The notes below the pieces were generated by a model that worked only from the letters and a program-made list of their open reading frames with translations, was not told the DNA's origin and made no database searches. Shown here piece after piece: positions 6,493-21,390 of a DNA stretch of 26,548 nt. Numbering within the stretch: position 1 is the stretch's first letter; every line of letters begins with the position of its first letter. Origin of the DNA: a virus. The stretch spans positions 1 to 26,548 of the IMG/VR virus record IMGVR_UViG_3300044636_000639; one strand, 5' to 3'. The translations under genes and the position numbers were made by a program.

Positions 6493-7415
6493 TCTCCAAC
6501 ATTCCTAATATCGTCCCCTCCAATGGGCAATACACCCATGAGATGCTGGTCACGGCATTGCGTACAATGCTCAACGATTATGGTGGCGGCAAGCTTGACA
6601 CCTTTGATTTGCGTCTTTGGCTTAATCTTGGTTTGACAAAAGCCGCAGGATTTATCCGCACCTATGCTCCACAATACTATACGATCAAACTCCAAGGCAT
6701 CATTAATCAAGATGTCACACAGGGCAGTTCGTTGCTTGGCGGAGTATCAAAGTATGCCTATGGACAATGCGATCTTGGTACGGCCGTACAGGTATCGGCT
6801 CCAGACTATGAACGAGGTGAAATTTCATGGCCGACACGCATCTACGGCAATGCCGTATGGTCGTCGATCGTTCCCTATCAGTACATCTGCGATGTACCGA
6901 CAGTACAAATAAGCCACAAATACAACACAACAACATCACTCCAGTATCCAAACTATTGGATTGGTTTGCCACACAAGGTAGCTCCAGATCAATTCGCCGC
7001 AATTATCAGCGGATTAAATGACAGTTGGAGACAAGACGTTGTTTGGACGTACGACGACAAAAAGGTAAAGATGTGGTTTGGCAGTGAAGTACTTATCAAT
7101 CCATCTATGCAAAGTTCTGCATTGCAATACAACTGGTTTACAAATGCACGAGCAGACATTACGGTTTTACGCAAACCTATTCTGGATGATCTTGGGGATC
7201 TTAGCAAAATTGATGCAAACGGCCCTGTATTTACCAACTATCGTGAATATGTCGATTGCCCAGATGAAGCCATAGGATTGCTACTTCAATACGCCAAAGA
7301 AGCAGCTCTTGGTGTTCTTGGCAAGCCTGAAGACGCCGGTACAAAACAGGTCTCAATAATGATGGAACAGTCACTACTTACCTCACTTGGTCATGTCCAG
7401 CAGCAACCCCAGTAA
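6489..7415 (+). CDS. Putative head-tail adaptor/connector protein
   Basis: The 308-residue product starts with a helical domain: MLVTALRTMLNDYGGGKLD, then LRLWLNLGLTKAAGFI (residues about 40-57). That is the layout of adaptor proteins that dock under the portal, in which an early helix carries a W-L-N-x-G/A motif. It ends with a helix CPDEAIGLLLQYAKEAALGV that also resembles adaptor C-termini. The middle (residues about 60-245) is beta-rich, with many Tyr and Trp, and is larger than the adaptor in T7-like phages. It overlaps the previous gene by four bases and the next by 23. Adaptor/ring identity is inferred from these features and from its neighbours. Confidence 0.55.
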   Translation: MISNIPNIVPSNGQYTHEMLVTALRTMLNDYGGGKLDTFDLRLWLNLGLTKAAGFIRTYAPQYYTIKLQGIINQDVTQGSSLLGGVSKYAYGQCDLGTAVQVSAPDYERGEISWPTRIYGNAVWSSIVPYQYICDVPTVQISHKYNTTTSLQYPNYWIGLPHKVAPDQFAAIISGLNDSWRQDVVWTYDDKKVKMWFGSEVLINPSMQSSALQYNWFTNARADITVLRKPILDDLGDLSKIDANGPVFTNYREYVDCPDEAIGLLLQYAKEAALGVLGKPEDAGTKQVSIMMEQSLLTSLGHVQQQPQ

Positions 7416-7953
7416 TGATGTCGGTCAAGCAATAGTTAACGAAGCTCGCAAATGGCTCCATGTACGAGAAATTGGAGCTAATCATGGATTTAACGACAAG
7501 ATCTTTGAAGCACAAATCAAGCTAGTTGGTTGGAAAGTTGGAGAACCCTGGTGCGCCTACTTTGCCAAGCTGGTTTGGTTAAATGTTTACAAGAAAACAC
7601 CGCACTACGTCATACTTGAAAAGGTACTGTCGGGTAGTGTATTAGCCACATGGCGTAATGCCAAAGCCTCGCCAATTATTCATACGGGCGAAAAGCCCGT
7701 TGTAGGTGGTATAGTTTGCTGGGGCACTGGTAATGGCAAGGGCCATGAAGGCATCCATATTGAAATACGCGACGATTTTAACACGGTTACGATTGAGGGT
7801 AACACCTCTCGTGCAGGTGTACGAGAAGGCGACAAAATCATGGAAAAGCGTCGCAAGCTACAACCAACAGCAAAGCATAATAACGATTGGCGGTATTTAG
7901 GAACCATTATCCCTCCGGCACATGTCGACTTCCCTTCAGCACCTGCTGTCTAA
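7393..7953 (+). CDS. CHAP-domain peptidoglycan hydrolase (amidase/endopeptidase)
   Basis: The 186-residue product carries a CHAP/NlpC-P60-type papain-like fold. The catalytic Cys54 is in EPWCAYFAKLVW, His118 in GKGHEGIHIE, and Glu135 in VTIEGNTS, the usual Cys-His-polar order. Such enzymes cut the amide or peptide links of peptidoglycan. The first 50 residues (EARKWLHVREIGANHGFND) match the conserved lead-in of phage CHAP proteins of the TIGR02594 kind. The domain fills the whole protein, with no separate wall-binding domain. ATG 7393 lies inside the previous gene (23-base overlap); a TTG at 7387 would add two residues. There is no holin next to it. It could be the endolysin or a virion-borne enzyme that opens the wall during DNA entry. 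Confidence 0.85.
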   Translation: MSSSNPSNDVGQAIVNEARKWLHVREIGANHGFNDKIFEAQIKLVGWKVGEPWCAYFAKLVWLNVYKKTPHYVILEKVLSGSVLATWRNAKASPIIHTGEKPVVGGIVCWGTGNGKGHEGIHIEIRDDFNTVTIEGNTSRAGVREGDKIMEKRRKLQPTAKHNNDWRYLGTIIPPAHVDFPSAPAV

Positions 7954-16812: not shown

Positions 16813-17345
16813 GTGATTTTGTCGTCAATGTTCGTGAGTCTTTGATTGTTAACCTCACTGAAGAAAACATCACTGTAAATGTTCCAGGCCCAGAACAATC
16901 ATTGGTAGTTAACGTAGTAGGAACCAATCCAACGATTGAACGAAAAGAAGAAATTATTACTCTTGATGTTGCTAGCGGTGGTTTAGTTCCAACAGGAGGA
17001 GCAGATCTTACATGTACAGCGGGTACAAATCTATCAGCATTGCGAGCTGTTACTTTTAATAATAATGGTGAAGCAGTGTATGCTTCCAATAATACAATCG
17101 CTAACGCGCAAGTTGTTGGAATAACCATAATATCGGCATCTATTGGTCAACCTGTTACAATAGCCGCTGCTGGATTGTTTGCAGACAATTCATGGTCGTG
17201 GACAAAAGGGCCCGTTTTTTTGGGTACCAATGGTATGCTCACACAAACTGCGCCAACAAACGGAGCAGTGCTGGTGTATGTCGCGCGAGCATTGACACCA
17301 ACAACAATTCAAATCGACATTGACACAACCATTTTAACGGTATAA
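16809..17345 (+). CDS. Fibre or head-decoration protein with VN-beta repeats
   Basis: The 178-residue product has two parts. Residues 1-37 contain four short strands with a V-N-V/L core (VVNV at 5, IVNL at 13, TVNV at 21, VVNV at 32), a regular beta repeat. Residues about 65-178 form a beta module: LRAVTFNNNGEAVYASNN, VVGITIISASIGQPVTI, AAAGLFADNSW, GPVFLGTNGMLTQTAP, and ALTPTTIQIDID. The same strand order is recognisable in the next gene's product, so the two appear to share a module used in phage decoration and fibre proteins. A T7-long T-run at 17215-17221 lies inside the gene. It is coupled to the upstream gene by ATGA. Confidence 0.6.
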   Translation: MSDFVVNVRESLIVNLTEENITVNVPGPEQSLVVNVVGTNPTIERKEEIITLDVASGGLVPTGGADLTCTAGTNLSALRAVTFNNNGEAVYASNNTIANAQVVGITIISASIGQPVTIAAAGLFADNSWSWTKGPVFLGTNGMLTQTAPTNGAVLVYVARALTPTTIQIDIDTTILTV

Positions 17346-17350
17346 TTATC

Positions 17351-17860
17351 ATGGCAGACAAGTATATCAAGAACAACGCGGGCCAGCTCGCTGAAGTAGA
17401 AGCAACTGTGTCATCCACAGGTGTAACTGAGGCTGGAAAAATTGTAGCACTAGACGGATCGGGTAAGCTCGACGTTTCGACGCTACCGACAGGGATTGGC
17501 GCCACTACAAAAGTTGCGGCAACTACCGAAAACCTATCGGCGGGAATGTTGGTTAATCTATTTAACGATAGTGGTACTATCAAAGCTCGAAAGGCAGATG
17601 CAAGCAACGGACGTCGCGCCCATGGTTTTGTGCTGACTGGATCTACTACGCCTAACAATGCCACTGTGTATTTGGACGGCACGATCACGGGACTCGCGTC
17701 GCTCACACCGGGAGCTGCTTACTACTTGAGTGGTTTAACAGCAGGCGCGGCTACGGCAACGGCTCCGAGCACTGCGGGCTTTATCTCGCAAGAGATCGGC
17801 GTTGCTTTGTCGGCAACCGAGATCAACTTCGAAGAACAGCAACCAATCACGTTGGCCTGA
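17351..17860 (+). CDS. Fibre or head-decoration protein, paralogous module
   Basis: The 169-residue product opens with ADKYIKNNAGQLAEVEATV, then GKIVALDGSGKLDVSTLPTG, a linker common at the start of phage fibre and decoration proteins. It continues with a beta module: AGMLVNLFNDSGTIKARKA, AHGFVLTGSTTPNNATVYL, DGTITGLASLTPGAAYYLSG, and then IGVALSATEINFEEQQPITL. The order of strands parallels the C-terminal part of the preceding gene's product. GC content in 17461-17520 is 35 of 60 bases, higher than in the genes to the left, suggesting a different source. The ATG has no clear Shine-Dalgarno site and is preceded by TATAATTATC. Confidence 0.6.
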   Translation: MADKYIKNNAGQLAEVEATVSSTGVTEAGKIVALDGSGKLDVSTLPTGIGATTKVAATTENLSAGMLVNLFNDSGTIKARKADASNGRRAHGFVLTGSTTPNNATVYLDGTITGLASLTPGAAYYLSGLTAGAATATAPSTAGFISQEIGVALSATEINFEEQQPITLA

Positions 17861-17862
17861 TG

Positions 17863-17884
17863 TTTCCGAAACGAATTTCGGGAA
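17863..17884 (+). other. Intergenic hairpin between decoration and fibre-anchor genes
   Basis: TTTCCGAAA (17863-17871) pairs with TTTCGGGAA (17876-17884) around the loop CGAA, nine pairs including one G-U. It occupies half of the 49-base gap between two genes. CATGG follows instead of a T-run, so it is not a standard terminator. It may be a processing or stability element. Confidence 0.45.
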
Positions 17885-17909
17885 CATGGTTTAACAAAGT
17901 CGAAACATA

Positions 17910-18101
17910 ATGGCAGTCAAGAGACCGATCACAACACCGGCCGTATTGCAAGAACACCCGGACGCCGATGGTCTGTTGTGTGGTCAGGGGTTGATTTTAG
18001 CAGAACAAGCAAGTTCACTATCGACCCCGTCATCTGGTTATGGCGTGTTGTATGTAAAGACGAACGGCTTACTCTATTTCAAGAATGACAGCGGCACGGA
18101 A
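17910..18101 (+). repeat. Diverged direct repeat, copy 1 (partner 18116-18307)
   Basis: The 192-base coding segment for the fibre anchor domain recurs immediately downstream at 18116-18307 without gaps at the protein level. The copies differ mostly at third codon positions but also at 15 amino-acid sites, so the duplication is not recent. Confidence 0.75.
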
Positions 18102-18116
18102 ACACTTTTGAGCTAA
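17910..18116 (+). CDS. Stand-alone fibre N-terminal anchor-domain protein
   Basis: The 68-residue product is a paralogue of the N-terminal domain of the next gene's product: 49 of the first 64 residues are identical by my alignment. Shared motifs include KRPITT, LQEHPDAD, ILAEQASSL, TPSSGYGV and YFKND. In the next gene this domain precedes the adhesive part, so it probably attaches the fibre to the tail. Here it ends almost at the domain boundary (GTETLLS) with no adhesin. It could be a decoy, a capping subunit, or the remainder of a fibre gene that lost its tip. The stop shares one base with the next start (TAATG). Confidence 0.75.
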   Translation: MAVKRPITTPAVLQEHPDADGLLCGQGLILAEQASSLSTPSSGYGVLYVKTNGLLYFKNDSGTETLLS

Positions 18117-18307
18117 TGGCGAACAAAAGACCGATAACGACCACAGGCAACTTGCAAGAACACCCAGACGCCGATCAGCTGATCGCAGGTCAGGGGAACA
18201 TCCTTGCCGAGCAAGCATCCTCACTAGGGACGCCGTCGTCTGGTTATGGTGTGATCTATGCAAAGACAGACGGGAAGGTCTATTTTAAGAACGATGCCGG
18301 TACGGAA
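18116..18307 (+). repeat. Diverged direct repeat, copy 2 (partner 17910-18101)
   Basis: This is the second copy of the anchor-domain segment, fused here to the glycine-rich adhesin. It has 49 of 64 residues in common with copy 1. Confidence 0.75.
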
Positions 18308-19252
18308 TACGACCTAACAACTGCGGGCGGTGGGGGAACAAATCCCGTCATTCGTGAATACATTGCAAATGATACGTGGACGAAACCGACGGCCTCTAAC
18401 TTTTGGGGTGCTCTTATAATCTGTCTTGGTGCAGGAGGCGGAGGAGGATCGGGCAGAAGAGGACCATCGTCAACTAATAACTCAGGCGGTGGTGGTGGTG
18501 GTGGTGGGGGAATGGCGACGCGCCTTATTCGAAAAGCTCAACTACTCAATGCGACTTATGCGATCACCGTCGGCGCTGGTGGCCCTGGTGGTGCTGCACA
18601 GACTGTCAACAACACGAATGGCAACACTGGTCCTCAGGGTGGTGGATCATCATTTGATTCTTTGGTCCTCGCGCAAGGAGGTAGTGGTGGGGCTGGTGGT
18701 GCTGCAAGCAGCGCAGTTTCTGGTGGGTCTGGTGGATCAGCAACTTTAGCGACGCCGTCATACGGTCCGTATGCCTTGAGTGGTGGGGCTGGTGGATCAG
18801 GACGAAACAACTCAACTACAACATCAGATGGTACTACTGGTTTCATTGGTGCATCGGCTGCGTCTGGTGGCGGTGGCGGACGTGGTATGTCAACAACTGC
18901 GATAGCAACAACGGCTGGGGGAAGTGGTGGTGCTATTTACAACGGAGGTACTCTAATATCGGGACCTGCTGGTGGTGCTGCCATCGCTGGATCATCAGGT
19001 AGCAATGGTACTGATGTTGCTAATAAATACATCTACGATATCGACAACACCTTGACTAATGCAATAGGAACTGGAGGCGGAGGAGGATTCCCAGGTGACT
19101 TGGCTGCAACGGTCGCAGGAGGCAACGGCGGGAATGGCGGACGTGCATCAGGAGGAGGTGGAGGAGGTGCTTCTCGTGATGGACAGAACTCAGGAGCTGG
19201 TGGCAGTGGGGGCAACGGTCTATGTGTTGTCATTGAATATTACGGAAGCTAA
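18116..19252 (+). CDS. Glycine-rich tail-fibre adhesin
   Basis: The 378-residue product starts with the 64-residue anchor domain described for the gene before it, then a Gly linker and EYIANDTWTKPTASNFWGA. From about residue 98 to the end it is a glycine-rich domain with runs such as GAGGGGGSG, nine consecutive Gly near 124-132, and many GGxGG units separated by short loops, ending in GNGLCVVIEYYGS. The W-T-K-P entry followed by G-A-G-G-G-G-G is typical of glycine-rich phage adhesins. In phage S16 gp38 such segments form packed polyglycine-II helices with receptor-binding loops at the tip. Here the loops between Gly runs (NNTNGNTGPQ, SYGPYALS, NNSTTTSDGTTG) are the likely variable contact sites. 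Overlapping long open frames are by-products of GGN codons. Confidence 0.75.
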   Translation: MANKRPITTTGNLQEHPDADQLIAGQGNILAEQASSLGTPSSGYGVIYAKTDGKVYFKNDAGTEYDLTTAGGGGTNPVIREYIANDTWTKPTASNFWGALIICLGAGGGGGSGRRGPSSTNNSGGGGGGGGGMATRLIRKAQLLNATYAITVGAGGPGGAAQTVNNTNGNTGPQGGGSSFDSLVLAQGGSGGAGGAASSAVSGGSGGSATLATPSYGPYALSGGAGGSGRNNSTTTSDGTTGFIGASAASGGGGGRGMSTTAIATTAGGSGGAIYNGGTLISGPAGGAAIAGSSGSNGTDVANKYIYDIDNTLTNAIGTGGGGGFPGDLAATVAGGNGGNGGRASGGGGGGASRDGQNSGAGGSGGNGLCVVIEYYGS

Positions 19253-19254
19253 TT

Positions 19255-19464
19255 ATGAAAGCAGCGCGTTACGCCATGGTCAAAGACAACCTTGTTTACA
19301 ACGTCTGCCTATGGGATGGCAACCTCGCCACATGGCAACCACCGGATGATGGCACGATCATGATTGCCAATGACTACGCCGGCATCGGCGATTGGTGGGA
19401 TGAATCCGAGCAACGTTTCTACCGACCGATACCGAATAACGAGGAGGTGCAGAGTGACACCTGA
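19255..19464 (+). CDS. Small tail-fibre-associated protein
   Basis: The 69-residue product has the pattern V-x-N-V-x-x-W-D-G, then W-x-P-P, then I-G-D-W, then F-Y-R-P (VYNVCLWDGNLATWQPPDDG and AGIGDWWDESEQRFYRP). It matches a family of very small phage proteins usually found just after tail fibre genes. Their role is not settled; fibre chaperone or fibre-tip component are the usual suggestions. The gene starts two bases after the adhesin stop and ends eleven bases inside the next gene. The start region carries no strong Shine-Dalgarno site. Confidence 0.65.
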   Translation: MKAARYAMVKDNLVYNVCLWDGNLATWQPPDDGTIMIANDYAGIGDWWDESEQRFYRPIPNNEEVQSDT

Positions 19465-19696
19465 GTTTTTTATCGGCGTAGTTATCACAAGTCTTGTGGC
19501 TACGGTAGGGTATTTTCTGAAGGCCCTAGTAACCAAGACCGACCGGGCTTTGGAGGTATCGCTAGCAATGCACGAAACCTTGAAAGGTGCAACAGAGGCA
19601 ATCGTTCAACTGCAACAAAGCGACCGGGAAACATCACGTCAGATCATCAATATCGTCGAACGTCTTGTGCGATTGGAAGAGCGAGCATCGCGATGA
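19454..19696 (+). CDS. Membrane protein with coiled coil, lysis-cassette type (holin or i-spanin-like)
   Basis: I choose GTG 19454 because GAGGAGG (19441-19447) is the best Shine-Dalgarno site in the window and lies six bases upstream. The frame is open earlier but that part overlaps the previous gene. The 80-residue product has one membrane segment (residues about 4-24, EFFIGVVITSLVATVGYFLK) followed by a long charged helix with heptad character (ETSRQIINIVERLVRLEERA). One N-terminal anchor plus coiled coil fits an inner-membrane spanin or an accessory holin. No lipoprotein partner (outer spanin) is visible nearby. The stop overlaps the next start (ATGA). Confidence 0.65.
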   Translation: MTPEFFIGVVITSLVATVGYFLKALVTKTDRALEVSLAMHETLKGATEAIVQLQQSDRETSRQIINIVERLVRLEERASR

Positions 19697-20055
19697 AGCA
19701 CGACGAGGTAACCATACTCAAACCCCCACCGTTTCCGGTGCGGCCATTGCCGACTGACGAGCCGATGCGCTTGTATCGGCAGCAAGTAAGCCCTGATGAA
19801 ATTAAACTTGAAATCAAACCGATTGAACTAACACTTTGGCAGAAGGCAACTCTTTTGCCTTATGTATTTATCATTTTGAAAGGTGCTGTGATGAACGATC
19901 TAAAAACAACTATCTCTGGTTTTGTTAAAGTGGCATTGCAAATTGCAACGCTTTTTGGACTAGCATGGGGACACATCGACGAATCCCTGATTACAGGTGT
20001 TCTATGGGGTGTTGTCTCAATTTACCAGTCAGTTGTAACCGCTGATAAAAAGTAA
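19693..20055 (+). CDS. Holin-like membrane protein with N-terminal extension
   Basis: The 120-residue product has a hydrophilic Pro-rich N-terminus (residues 1-50), then hydrophobic segments at about 53-66 (LLPYVFIILKGAV), 75-93 (ISGFVKVALQIATLFGLAWG) and 99-115 (LITGVLWGVVSIYQSVV). Two or three membrane spans beside another small membrane protein suggest a holin, which makes the membrane lesion that ends infection. An internal ATG at 19891 with its own ribosome site would make the 54-residue C-terminal form alone. Base composition breaks within the gene: 19681-19800 is 70 of 120 GC, and 19801-19920 is 41 of 120. The long form may therefore be a fusion and the short form the original holin. 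No endolysin is next to it. Confidence 0.6.
   Translation: MKHDEVTILKPPPFPVRPLPTDEPMRLYRQQVSPDEIKLEIKPIELTLWQKATLLPYVFIILKGAVMNDLKTTISGFVKVALQIATLFGLAWGHIDESLITGVLWGVVSIYQSVVTADKK
19878..19893 (+). promoter_or_regulatory. Internal ribosome site and start codon in holin-like gene
   Basis: GAAAGGTG (19878-19885) lies five bases before an in-frame ATG (19891-19893). Translation from here gives a 54-residue two-span protein beginning MNDLKTTISGF. Dual starts that give long and short holin forms are known from lambda S; here the difference is 66 residues, far more than in lambda. Confidence 0.5.
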
Positions 20056-20068
20056 TCTACGAGTTACC

Positions 20069-21097
20069 GTGTCAGTACGACCACGCCTAACAGAGGACGA
20101 ATACGACCTCATCATTGAGATGCGCAAAGCCGCTGGGACGTATCAAAACCCAGCGGCTATCAAGGCTGCTGCCGCGCATTACAAGCGTGGGTTCGAAGCT
20201 AGGCATGGCATAACACCAGAAGAGTCCAAAGACCAACGTGAACAGGGCGAAGCGTGGGATCCTCGCAAGGGGACGTCTAATGAATCCTACGGGGCCGTGC
20301 CAGGCATCGACGGCGAAATGGAGATTGGAGACCTGCGGGACGATGTCGTATGTGAGGTCACCAGCAACCTGACCGGCATCATCTCAGATGCACACTGGCC
20401 ATTTCACGACTTGCGACGTGATGCGTCTGGACAGTTTTACGGTGCGTACCTGACGGCATTGCAAGAGCTGAAGAACGCAGGTGTGCAGACGGTTATCCTC
20501 AATGGTGACATGCTCGATTGTTACCAGCTGTCTTCGCACGAAAAGGTAGAATTGAAACGGTCGTGGAAGTGGGAACTTGACGTCGGTAAGAAGATGCTCG
20601 AGCACCTACGTAAATTCTTTGGCGATGGCGTACGGATCATCTACCGTGAGGGCAACCACGAGGAGCGGTTTCAACGCTACCTGGCACGCAAGGCCAGCGA
20701 ACTGCAAGGGACGATCGACATTGAGTCTATGCTCGGGATCAGAGACAACGGTATCGAGTGGGTGTGCAATCGTGCAAAGATGACCATCGGTAAGTTATGG
20801 GTCGATCATGGCCACGAGTGGTATGGTGGTGGTGGTGTGATGCCAGCTCGGAACTTCCGAATGAAGGCTCTCGACAACATCCTTGTAGGTCACGTGCACA
20901 GGACTAGCCAAGATCAGATACGCAAGCCATTAGACGGGTCTTTCATTGCGGGGTGGAGTGTGGGTTGCCTATGCGATTTGAACCCTCACTACGCGCCTAG
21001 AAACGGCTGGAATCACGGGTTCGCTACGGTGCAACTGGAGGGCGACGGAACATTCGCCGTGAACAATCGCACAATCATCAATGGGGTGGTGCGGTGA
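20069..21097 (+). CDS. Calcineurin-like metallophosphoesterase
   Basis: The 342-residue product carries the full metal-site motif set of the metallophosphoesterase superfamily: D107-x-H109 (SDAHWPFHD), G146-D147 (NGDMLD), G195-N-H-E198 (GNHEERF), H247-G-H249 (VDHGHEWYGG) and G274-H-V-H277 (LVGHVHR). The superfamily cleaves phosphomono- or diesters using two metal ions. The substrate cannot be predicted; protein, nucleotide or nucleic acid are all possible. The N-terminal 100 residues are helical and Ala/charged-rich (AAIKAAAAHYKRGFEARHG) and could contact nucleic acid or another protein. GTG 20069 starts the frame. The gene is much more GC-rich than its right neighbour and sits in the lysis region, so it looks like an acquired cargo gene. 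Confidence 0.85.
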   Translation: MSVRPRLTEDEYDLIIEMRKAAGTYQNPAAIKAAAAHYKRGFEARHGITPEESKDQREQGEAWDPRKGTSNESYGAVPGIDGEMEIGDLRDDVVCEVTSNLTGIISDAHWPFHDLRRDASGQFYGAYLTALQELKNAGVQTVILNGDMLDCYQLSSHEKVELKRSWKWELDVGKKMLEHLRKFFGDGVRIIYREGNHEERFQRYLARKASELQGTIDIESMLGIRDNGIEWVCNRAKMTIGKLWVDHGHEWYGGGGVMPARNFRMKALDNILVGHVHRTSQDQIRKPLDGSFIAGWSVGCLCDLNPHYAPRNGWNHGFATVQLEGDGTFAVNNRTIINGVVR

Positions 21098-21390
21098 CGA
21101 TTCCTAAATCATTTAGATTGGCTGGTGATTTATGGAAAGTTGTTATAGCTAAAAAACCTATTGGTGGTTTTGGTGAGTGTGACTTTGAAAAACGCATTAT
21201 CCGAATAGCGGCTACAATCAACGGCAAACCTATTTCTACATCGGATCAGCTTAAAACGTTTTTGCACGAATGGTGGCATGCCTTTGAGCATGTCATAGGT
21301 CGAGACGTAAACGAAACTGACGCAATACAGTTTGAGAATATGATGTATCAAACACTAACAACAATGCGCGGTAATCAAAACGAGCTATAA
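21094..21390 (+). CDS. Small HExxH zinc metallopeptidase-like protein
   Basis: The 98-residue product has H58-E59-W-W-H62 in LKTFLHEWWHAFEH, the zinc-binding HExxH of gluzincin-type peptidases, preceded by a strand (KRIIRIAATINGK) as in SprT- and ImmA/IrrE-like folds. Glu74 or Glu81 (NETDAIQFEN) could be the third ligand. Proteins this small and of this layout are common in phages, and their targets are unknown. GTG 21094 overlaps the phosphoesterase stop (GTGA), with GGGGTGG just upstream. Composition falls to 22 of 60 GC in 21121-21180, against 38 of 60 in the previous gene (20641-20700). It is the last gene before the terminator. Lysis, protein processing or anti-host action are possible; nothing here decides. 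Confidence 0.75.
   Translation: MTIPKSFRLAGDLWKVVIAKKPIGGFGECDFEKRIIRIAATINGKPISTSDQLKTFLHEWWHAFEHVIGRDVNETDAIQFENMMYQTLTTMRGNQNEL

Follow-up and report, generated by a model that had tools for sequence, protein, structure and literature searches.

The window analysed here, a stretch of viral DNA of 26548 bases, carries a small holin-like gene of 120 codons. Comparison of this gene with its relatives leads us to conclude that its N-terminal tail and its membrane domain have separate histories, and that a break in base composition within its reading frame is a real recombination junction. We propose, with a probability of about 0.6, that the gene is a two-part holin-like lysis gene, that a block of the type found in the L012 phage was joined around a membrane domain ("type II") of the backbone lineage, and that the tailed protein is the main product. 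The occurrence of all four combinations of two tails and two membrane domains within one such 120-codon gene is the noteworthy observation.

The composition break and the mosaic block

The features of the region, all on the plus strand, are as follows.

17301..21372, plus strand: GC-rich block common with L012-type phages, from tail-fibre genes to a SprT-like gene, broken only by the island
19454..19696, plus strand: upstream partner gene, 80 aa, with one N-terminal hydrophobic span, a long charged tail and a strong Shine-Dalgarno (SD) site (-14.9)
19693..20055, plus strand: holin-like gene, full length, 120 aa, its start overlapping the stop of the preceding gene (ATGA)
19693..19790, plus strand: N-tail, Pro-rich, without predicted secondary structure
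19791..20067, plus strand: AT-rich island (38.6% GC), comprising the remainder of the gene and a short intergenic gap
19828..19890, plus strand: linker/helix 1, residues 46-66, LTLWQKATLLPYVFIILKGAV, with a W-Q/N-K..L.PY..G pattern conserved among close relatives
19880..19886, plus strand: SD-like aaggtgc 5' of the internal ATG
19891..20055, plus strand: candidate short form from an in-frame ATG, type II membrane domain, 54 aa, with a KTTI-G start and two hydrophobic spans
20069..21097, plus strand: metallophosphoesterase-like gene (phrog_221, E-value = 2e-29), right flank of the L012-like block, 98% identical in amino acids to L012 and 30% to L063

The GC content is 58.3% at 19681-19800 and 34.2% at 19801-19920, as the initial annotation had reported in placing a break within the frame near codon 37. 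The step is unmatched in the window: among all its positions, adjacent 120-bp segments differ by at least 0.24 only at 19784-19801, with a maximum of 0.267 at 19794. Third-position GC drops from 0.64 in codons 1-36 to 0.32 in codons 37-120.

The DNA identity profile against L012, L007 and L004 exhibits sharp junctions near 19790 and 20067. Identity is 83-96% over 19691-19780, about 73% over the next 60 bases and 23-66% from 19841, and it is back at 86-100% from about 20080 onward, inside the following gene. The flanks (17301-19862 and 20068-21372) are 83-94% identical to phages of about 54% GC (L012, L004, L010). The island is 70-80% identical in DNA to L006 over 19841-20050, and L006 matches 91% of the residues of the 54-residue part. 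From this profile we conclude that the composition break is a real recombination junction; the proposed recombination holds in that the junction lies in frame at the predicted place. Mosaicism is ordinary among phage genomes. The initial 10-15 codons of the island are closer to the L012 group than to L006, and the donor was therefore probably itself a long-form gene. Identity of the block to the L012 group stops at 21372, where T7-gp14-like genes follow, as in L063.

Two further irregularities were observed within the block. Segments 17910-18101 and 18114-18307 may represent a tandem duplication: in blastn against relatives, the 68-aa gene at 17910-18116 matches counterparts of the N-terminal part of the tail gene that follows, and vice versa, at about 70-74%. 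The upstream gene (19454-19696) exhibits two alleles when compared with L008 and L010 (96-98% versus 60% identical), with similarity climbing again near its end: a further mosaic junction, in the gene just before the holin-like one.

Tails, membrane domains and the direction of exchange

Hydropathy of the full-length protein peaks at residues 73-91 and 99-117, with a third, weaker peak at 52-70. A low-confidence AF2 model (mean pLDDT 56) places helices at 48-66, 70-91 and 97-119, and none before residue 48. Codons 1-66, which include the N-tail, are under purifying selection relative to the L012 group (dN/dS 0.17-0.28).

Long forms were compared in eight lineages: the window, L006, the L012 group, L049, L059, L060, L062 and L063/L065. 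Two types of membrane domain are seen among them, type I (L012, L049, L059, L060) and type II (window, L006, L062, L063), with similarity z-scores of 7-18 within type I, 12-26 within type II and -0.2 to 4.6 between types; the two types are not convincingly homologous beyond the first 9 or so residues. The tails group differently. The window tail is 79% similar to that of L012 (z = 24), and the L059 tail is 52% similar to that of L062 (z = 21). All four combinations of tail (A, B) and domain (I, II) therefore exist: A+I in L012, A+II in the window, B+I in L059 and B+II in L062. This pattern indicates that tail and membrane domain have separate histories, the reshuffling between L059 and L062 being independent of that in the window. 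In both tail pairs the similarity dwindles past residue 35-45, ahead of helix 1 or inside it; the exchanged unit therefore seems to be the hairpin together with most of helix 1. The break, at about codon 36, lies 30 codons before the internal start at codon 67, and the two mark different boundaries. An exchanged unit that begins about 30 codons ahead of the internal start does not support the idea that this event created the fusion.

The relatives carrying the holin-like gene, in all eight long-form lineages, are full length, and none lacks the tail. Third-position GC is nearly even across the gene in L006 (0.52/0.51) and L012 (0.64/0.62). Met67 and Gly64, three codons before it, are invariant in 8/8 of these diverged lineages. 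As the long form is present in all eight, with both residues invariant, the junction in the window swapped one N-tail for another inside an already long gene. Accordingly to this comparison, the fused long form predates the junction and is not new to the window phage. The proposal that the recombination event in the window had itself created the fusion finds no support in these full-length relatives, L006 and L012 with their nearly uniform composition included; tail-less homologues do exist, as stand-alone genes.

An assembly chimera of two co-occurring phages could in principle mimic such a mosaic, the window being a single viral contig from a sequence collection. We consider this very improbable: the reading frame runs on through the left junction and gene order is preserved at the right one, no sampled relative comes closer to the flanks than a 6% difference, and the same reshuffling occurs in the independent pair L059/L062.

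We infer the direction of the exchange, whereas the mosaic itself is directly visible in the alignments. The GC content is 0.449 in the backbone, 0.386 in the island and 0.519/0.545 in the flanks, and 0.53-0.56 in L012-type phages throughout their loci. The portal and capsid genes of the window have kin in the L063 and L065 records (62-63% in amino acids, the value for the portal; 72% in DNA), which carry type II domains in a similar gene order; no match to these genes was found in the L012 record. Composition and kinship agree in favouring the N-tail as the incoming side, with L012-like flanks arriving on both sides of a type II domain that belongs to the backbone lineage. The earlier description of the N-terminus as foreign is favoured to this extent: the flanks match L012-type phages of 53-56% GC, and the island fits better with the 45%-GC backbone and with the type II domains of L063/L065. 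The simple view of the AT-rich half as the foreign piece is weakened by the backbone composition and by L063/L065 sharing its type.

The opposite polarity, in which a resident L012-like lysis block received its type II domain, as a small island, from a donor resembling L006, is a serious possibility, though one that we rate below even odds. It requires one small insertion in place of two large tracts and is simpler in that respect, and L006 is the best sampled match to the island. Against it, the island is nearer in composition to the window backbone than to the block, the backbone kin carry type II, and the island and L006 share just the above 70-80% of DNA identity. Against the reading that we favour, on the other hand, the type II sequence nearest to the island is that of L006, in whose record the window portal has no match.

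The gene is a clean example of modular exchange within a very small lysis gene, and the family, absent from curated libraries, is defined here. In the literature on intragenic mosaicism in holin genes we found no paper describing this case.

Stand-alone homologues and lysis context

Short proteins related to the type I domain occur as stand-alone genes. These stand-alone homologues (50 residues, 22 loci, L021-L042, from AT-rich phages) were collected with the seed MKNPKTTI and their similarity was retested without the seed; against the L012 type I domain it persists (z = 3.5-5). They start exactly at the Met67 equivalent, and the upstream frame closes within 0-22 codons. With the long forms these MKNPKTTIFG proteins have in common the start Met, the KTTI-G motif and two hydrophobic spans; they differ in being without an N-tail and in exhibiting an A-rich start context with no clear SD. 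Homology between the window's own 54-residue part and the stand-alone proteins is undetectable beyond the motif, so that the link to them runs through the type I relatives. A lysozyme motif follows the stand-alone gene in 12/22 loci. In the two loci read fully, the gene overlaps a small membrane gene and precedes a phage lysozyme (PF00959, E-value = 1e-30 to 1e-31). Given the start at the Met67 equivalent and the neighbouring lysozymes, a long-standing fusion with its start preserved is plausible, the simplest reading being that a tail was joined in the distant past to a protein like the stand-alone ones.

The gene exhibits no significant profile match to curated holin families in Pfam, PHROGs and NCBIfam. 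The sole lysis match, a weak likeness of the 54-residue part to the holin family phrog_263, is not significant (E-value = 0.19). Searches by tblastn in sequenced phages gave nothing, whether with the 120-aa protein, the product of the gene upstream of it or the stand-alone form; two scans of bacterial genomes gave no relative, and Rfam gave no match. The upstream partner gene pairs with the long form in relatives, and its weak PHROG matches are to families of unknown function.

A CHAP/TIGR02594 endolysin-like gene is conserved downstream of the holin-like gene in four relatives:

L062 2811-3272: next gene (TIGR02594, E-value = 1e-44)
L060 687-1250: next gene (TIGR02594, E-value = 1e-37)
L059 3895-4353: three genes downstream, after the metallophosphoesterase and SprT-like genes
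L005 5652-6143: three genes downstream, in the same arrangement

The L062/L060 protein also matches endolysin PHROGs, its best PHROG match being a tail lysozyme. The gene is missing at that downstream site in the window and in L063. No endolysin gene adjoins the holin-like gene of the window, where the nearest CHAP candidate (7387-7953; phrog_9589, E-value = 2.5e-8) is an endolysin-like gene lying far away among structural genes and weakly alike to the L005 CHAP gene.

The gene, of putative two-span (class II holin) architecture, stands beside an endolysin-like or lysozyme gene in L062, L060 and the stand-alone loci, and not in the window itself. From its context the gene is probably a holin-like lysis gene. 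That it is instead a membrane protein of other function, located in the tail/lysis region by chance, appears unlikely to us. Family models give no holin call, and in several relatives the metallophosphoesterase and SprT-like genes stand between the gene and any endolysin; yet the gene directly adjoins endolysin-like genes in L062 and L060, the stand-alone homologues adjoin lysozyme genes, and the small hairpin architecture is in keeping with a holin.

As a holin-like lysis gene, it would consist of two parts that can be exchanged. One is a variable, hydrophilic N-tail, here some 35-45 residues long; the other is a membrane domain, of either type I or type II, made of one amphipathic or hydrophobic helix and a two-span hairpin bearing the KTTI-G motif. 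An L012-type block, with its own N-tail and neighbour genes, would have recombined around the type II domain typical of the backbone lineage, leaving the AT-rich island. Most of the gene's output is probably the full-length protein, whose translation would be coupled to that of the membrane-protein gene upstream. This protein would probably accumulate in the inner membrane and open it to the endolysin, with the tail, on the cytoplasmic side, perhaps serving as a regulatory or partner-binding arm.

The internal start and a possible second form

The in-frame ATG at 19891, the SD-like aaaggtg that precedes it and the 54-residue two-span frame (residues 73-91 and 99-117) are present as initially described. 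The anti-SD pairing energy is -6.2 kcal/mol, a value equalled by about 6-8% of internal in-frame ATGs. A shorter second protein starting at Met67 is plausible; a minor 54-residue product could be a relic of the ancient fusion.

It is doubtful whether ribosomes starting also at Met67 would provide a two-form timer, in which one of the 120- and 54-residue proteins would be the inhibitor and the other the effector. Such a timer would be consistent with the invariance of Met67 and Gly64 in the eight diverged long-form lineages, with the stand-alone homologues beginning at exactly the same residue, and with an SD-like strength above that of random internal ATGs when the eight lineages are combined (0.004). 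This SD-like strength was considered as proof of internal initiation and rejected, the signal being lost on synonymous-codon resampling (combined 0.44). With the amino acids fixed, the synonymous codons overall do not favour an SD, and the site in the window is explained by its Lys-Gly codons. L006 and the L012 group exhibit the weakest possible SD codon choices (1.0), and enrichment is seen only in L049, L059 and L060 of the eight lineages (each about 0.04). Furthermore, what recombination exchanged was more than the 54-residue unit: helix 1 moved along with the hairpin.

Holin timers with two forms have been described before (PMC6116005), so that a timer here would not be the new kind initially suggested. 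The dual-start holins of lambda and phage 21 are established (PMC6116005, PMC9671378). Lambda S105/S107 and phage 21 S68/S71 likewise exhibit two in-frame starts, corresponding here to the ATGs at 19693 and 19891. In those holins the starts are 2-3 codons apart with a basic residue between them (Met-Lys-x-Met type) and the extension is Met-Lys; here they are 66 codons apart, a long hydrophilic tail and a helix make up the extension, and the second start is a candidate only. Also comparable, according to work cited in PMC6116005, are the intragenic inhibitor of Listeria phage A118 (Hol118) and the in-frame embedded antiholin of a Lactobacillus fermentum phage, for which an inhibitory product is reported. 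There, an in-frame start deep inside the holin gene would likewise drop the N-terminal part. In those cases the embedded product is reported to inhibit; the short product here is a candidate, and the likeness is one of architecture. A two-form timer in the present gene, if real, would count as a variant, set apart by an extension of unusual length.

A broader picture, which we regard as improbable, is that of a holin family whose long cytoplasmic tails can be swapped and whose internal start is conserved; every phage would make a tailed and a tail-less form, and a tail swap by recombination would reset the timing of lysis for a new host or cassette. Were the internal start in use, this family would allow direct testing of whether a long N-tail makes a holin a timer.
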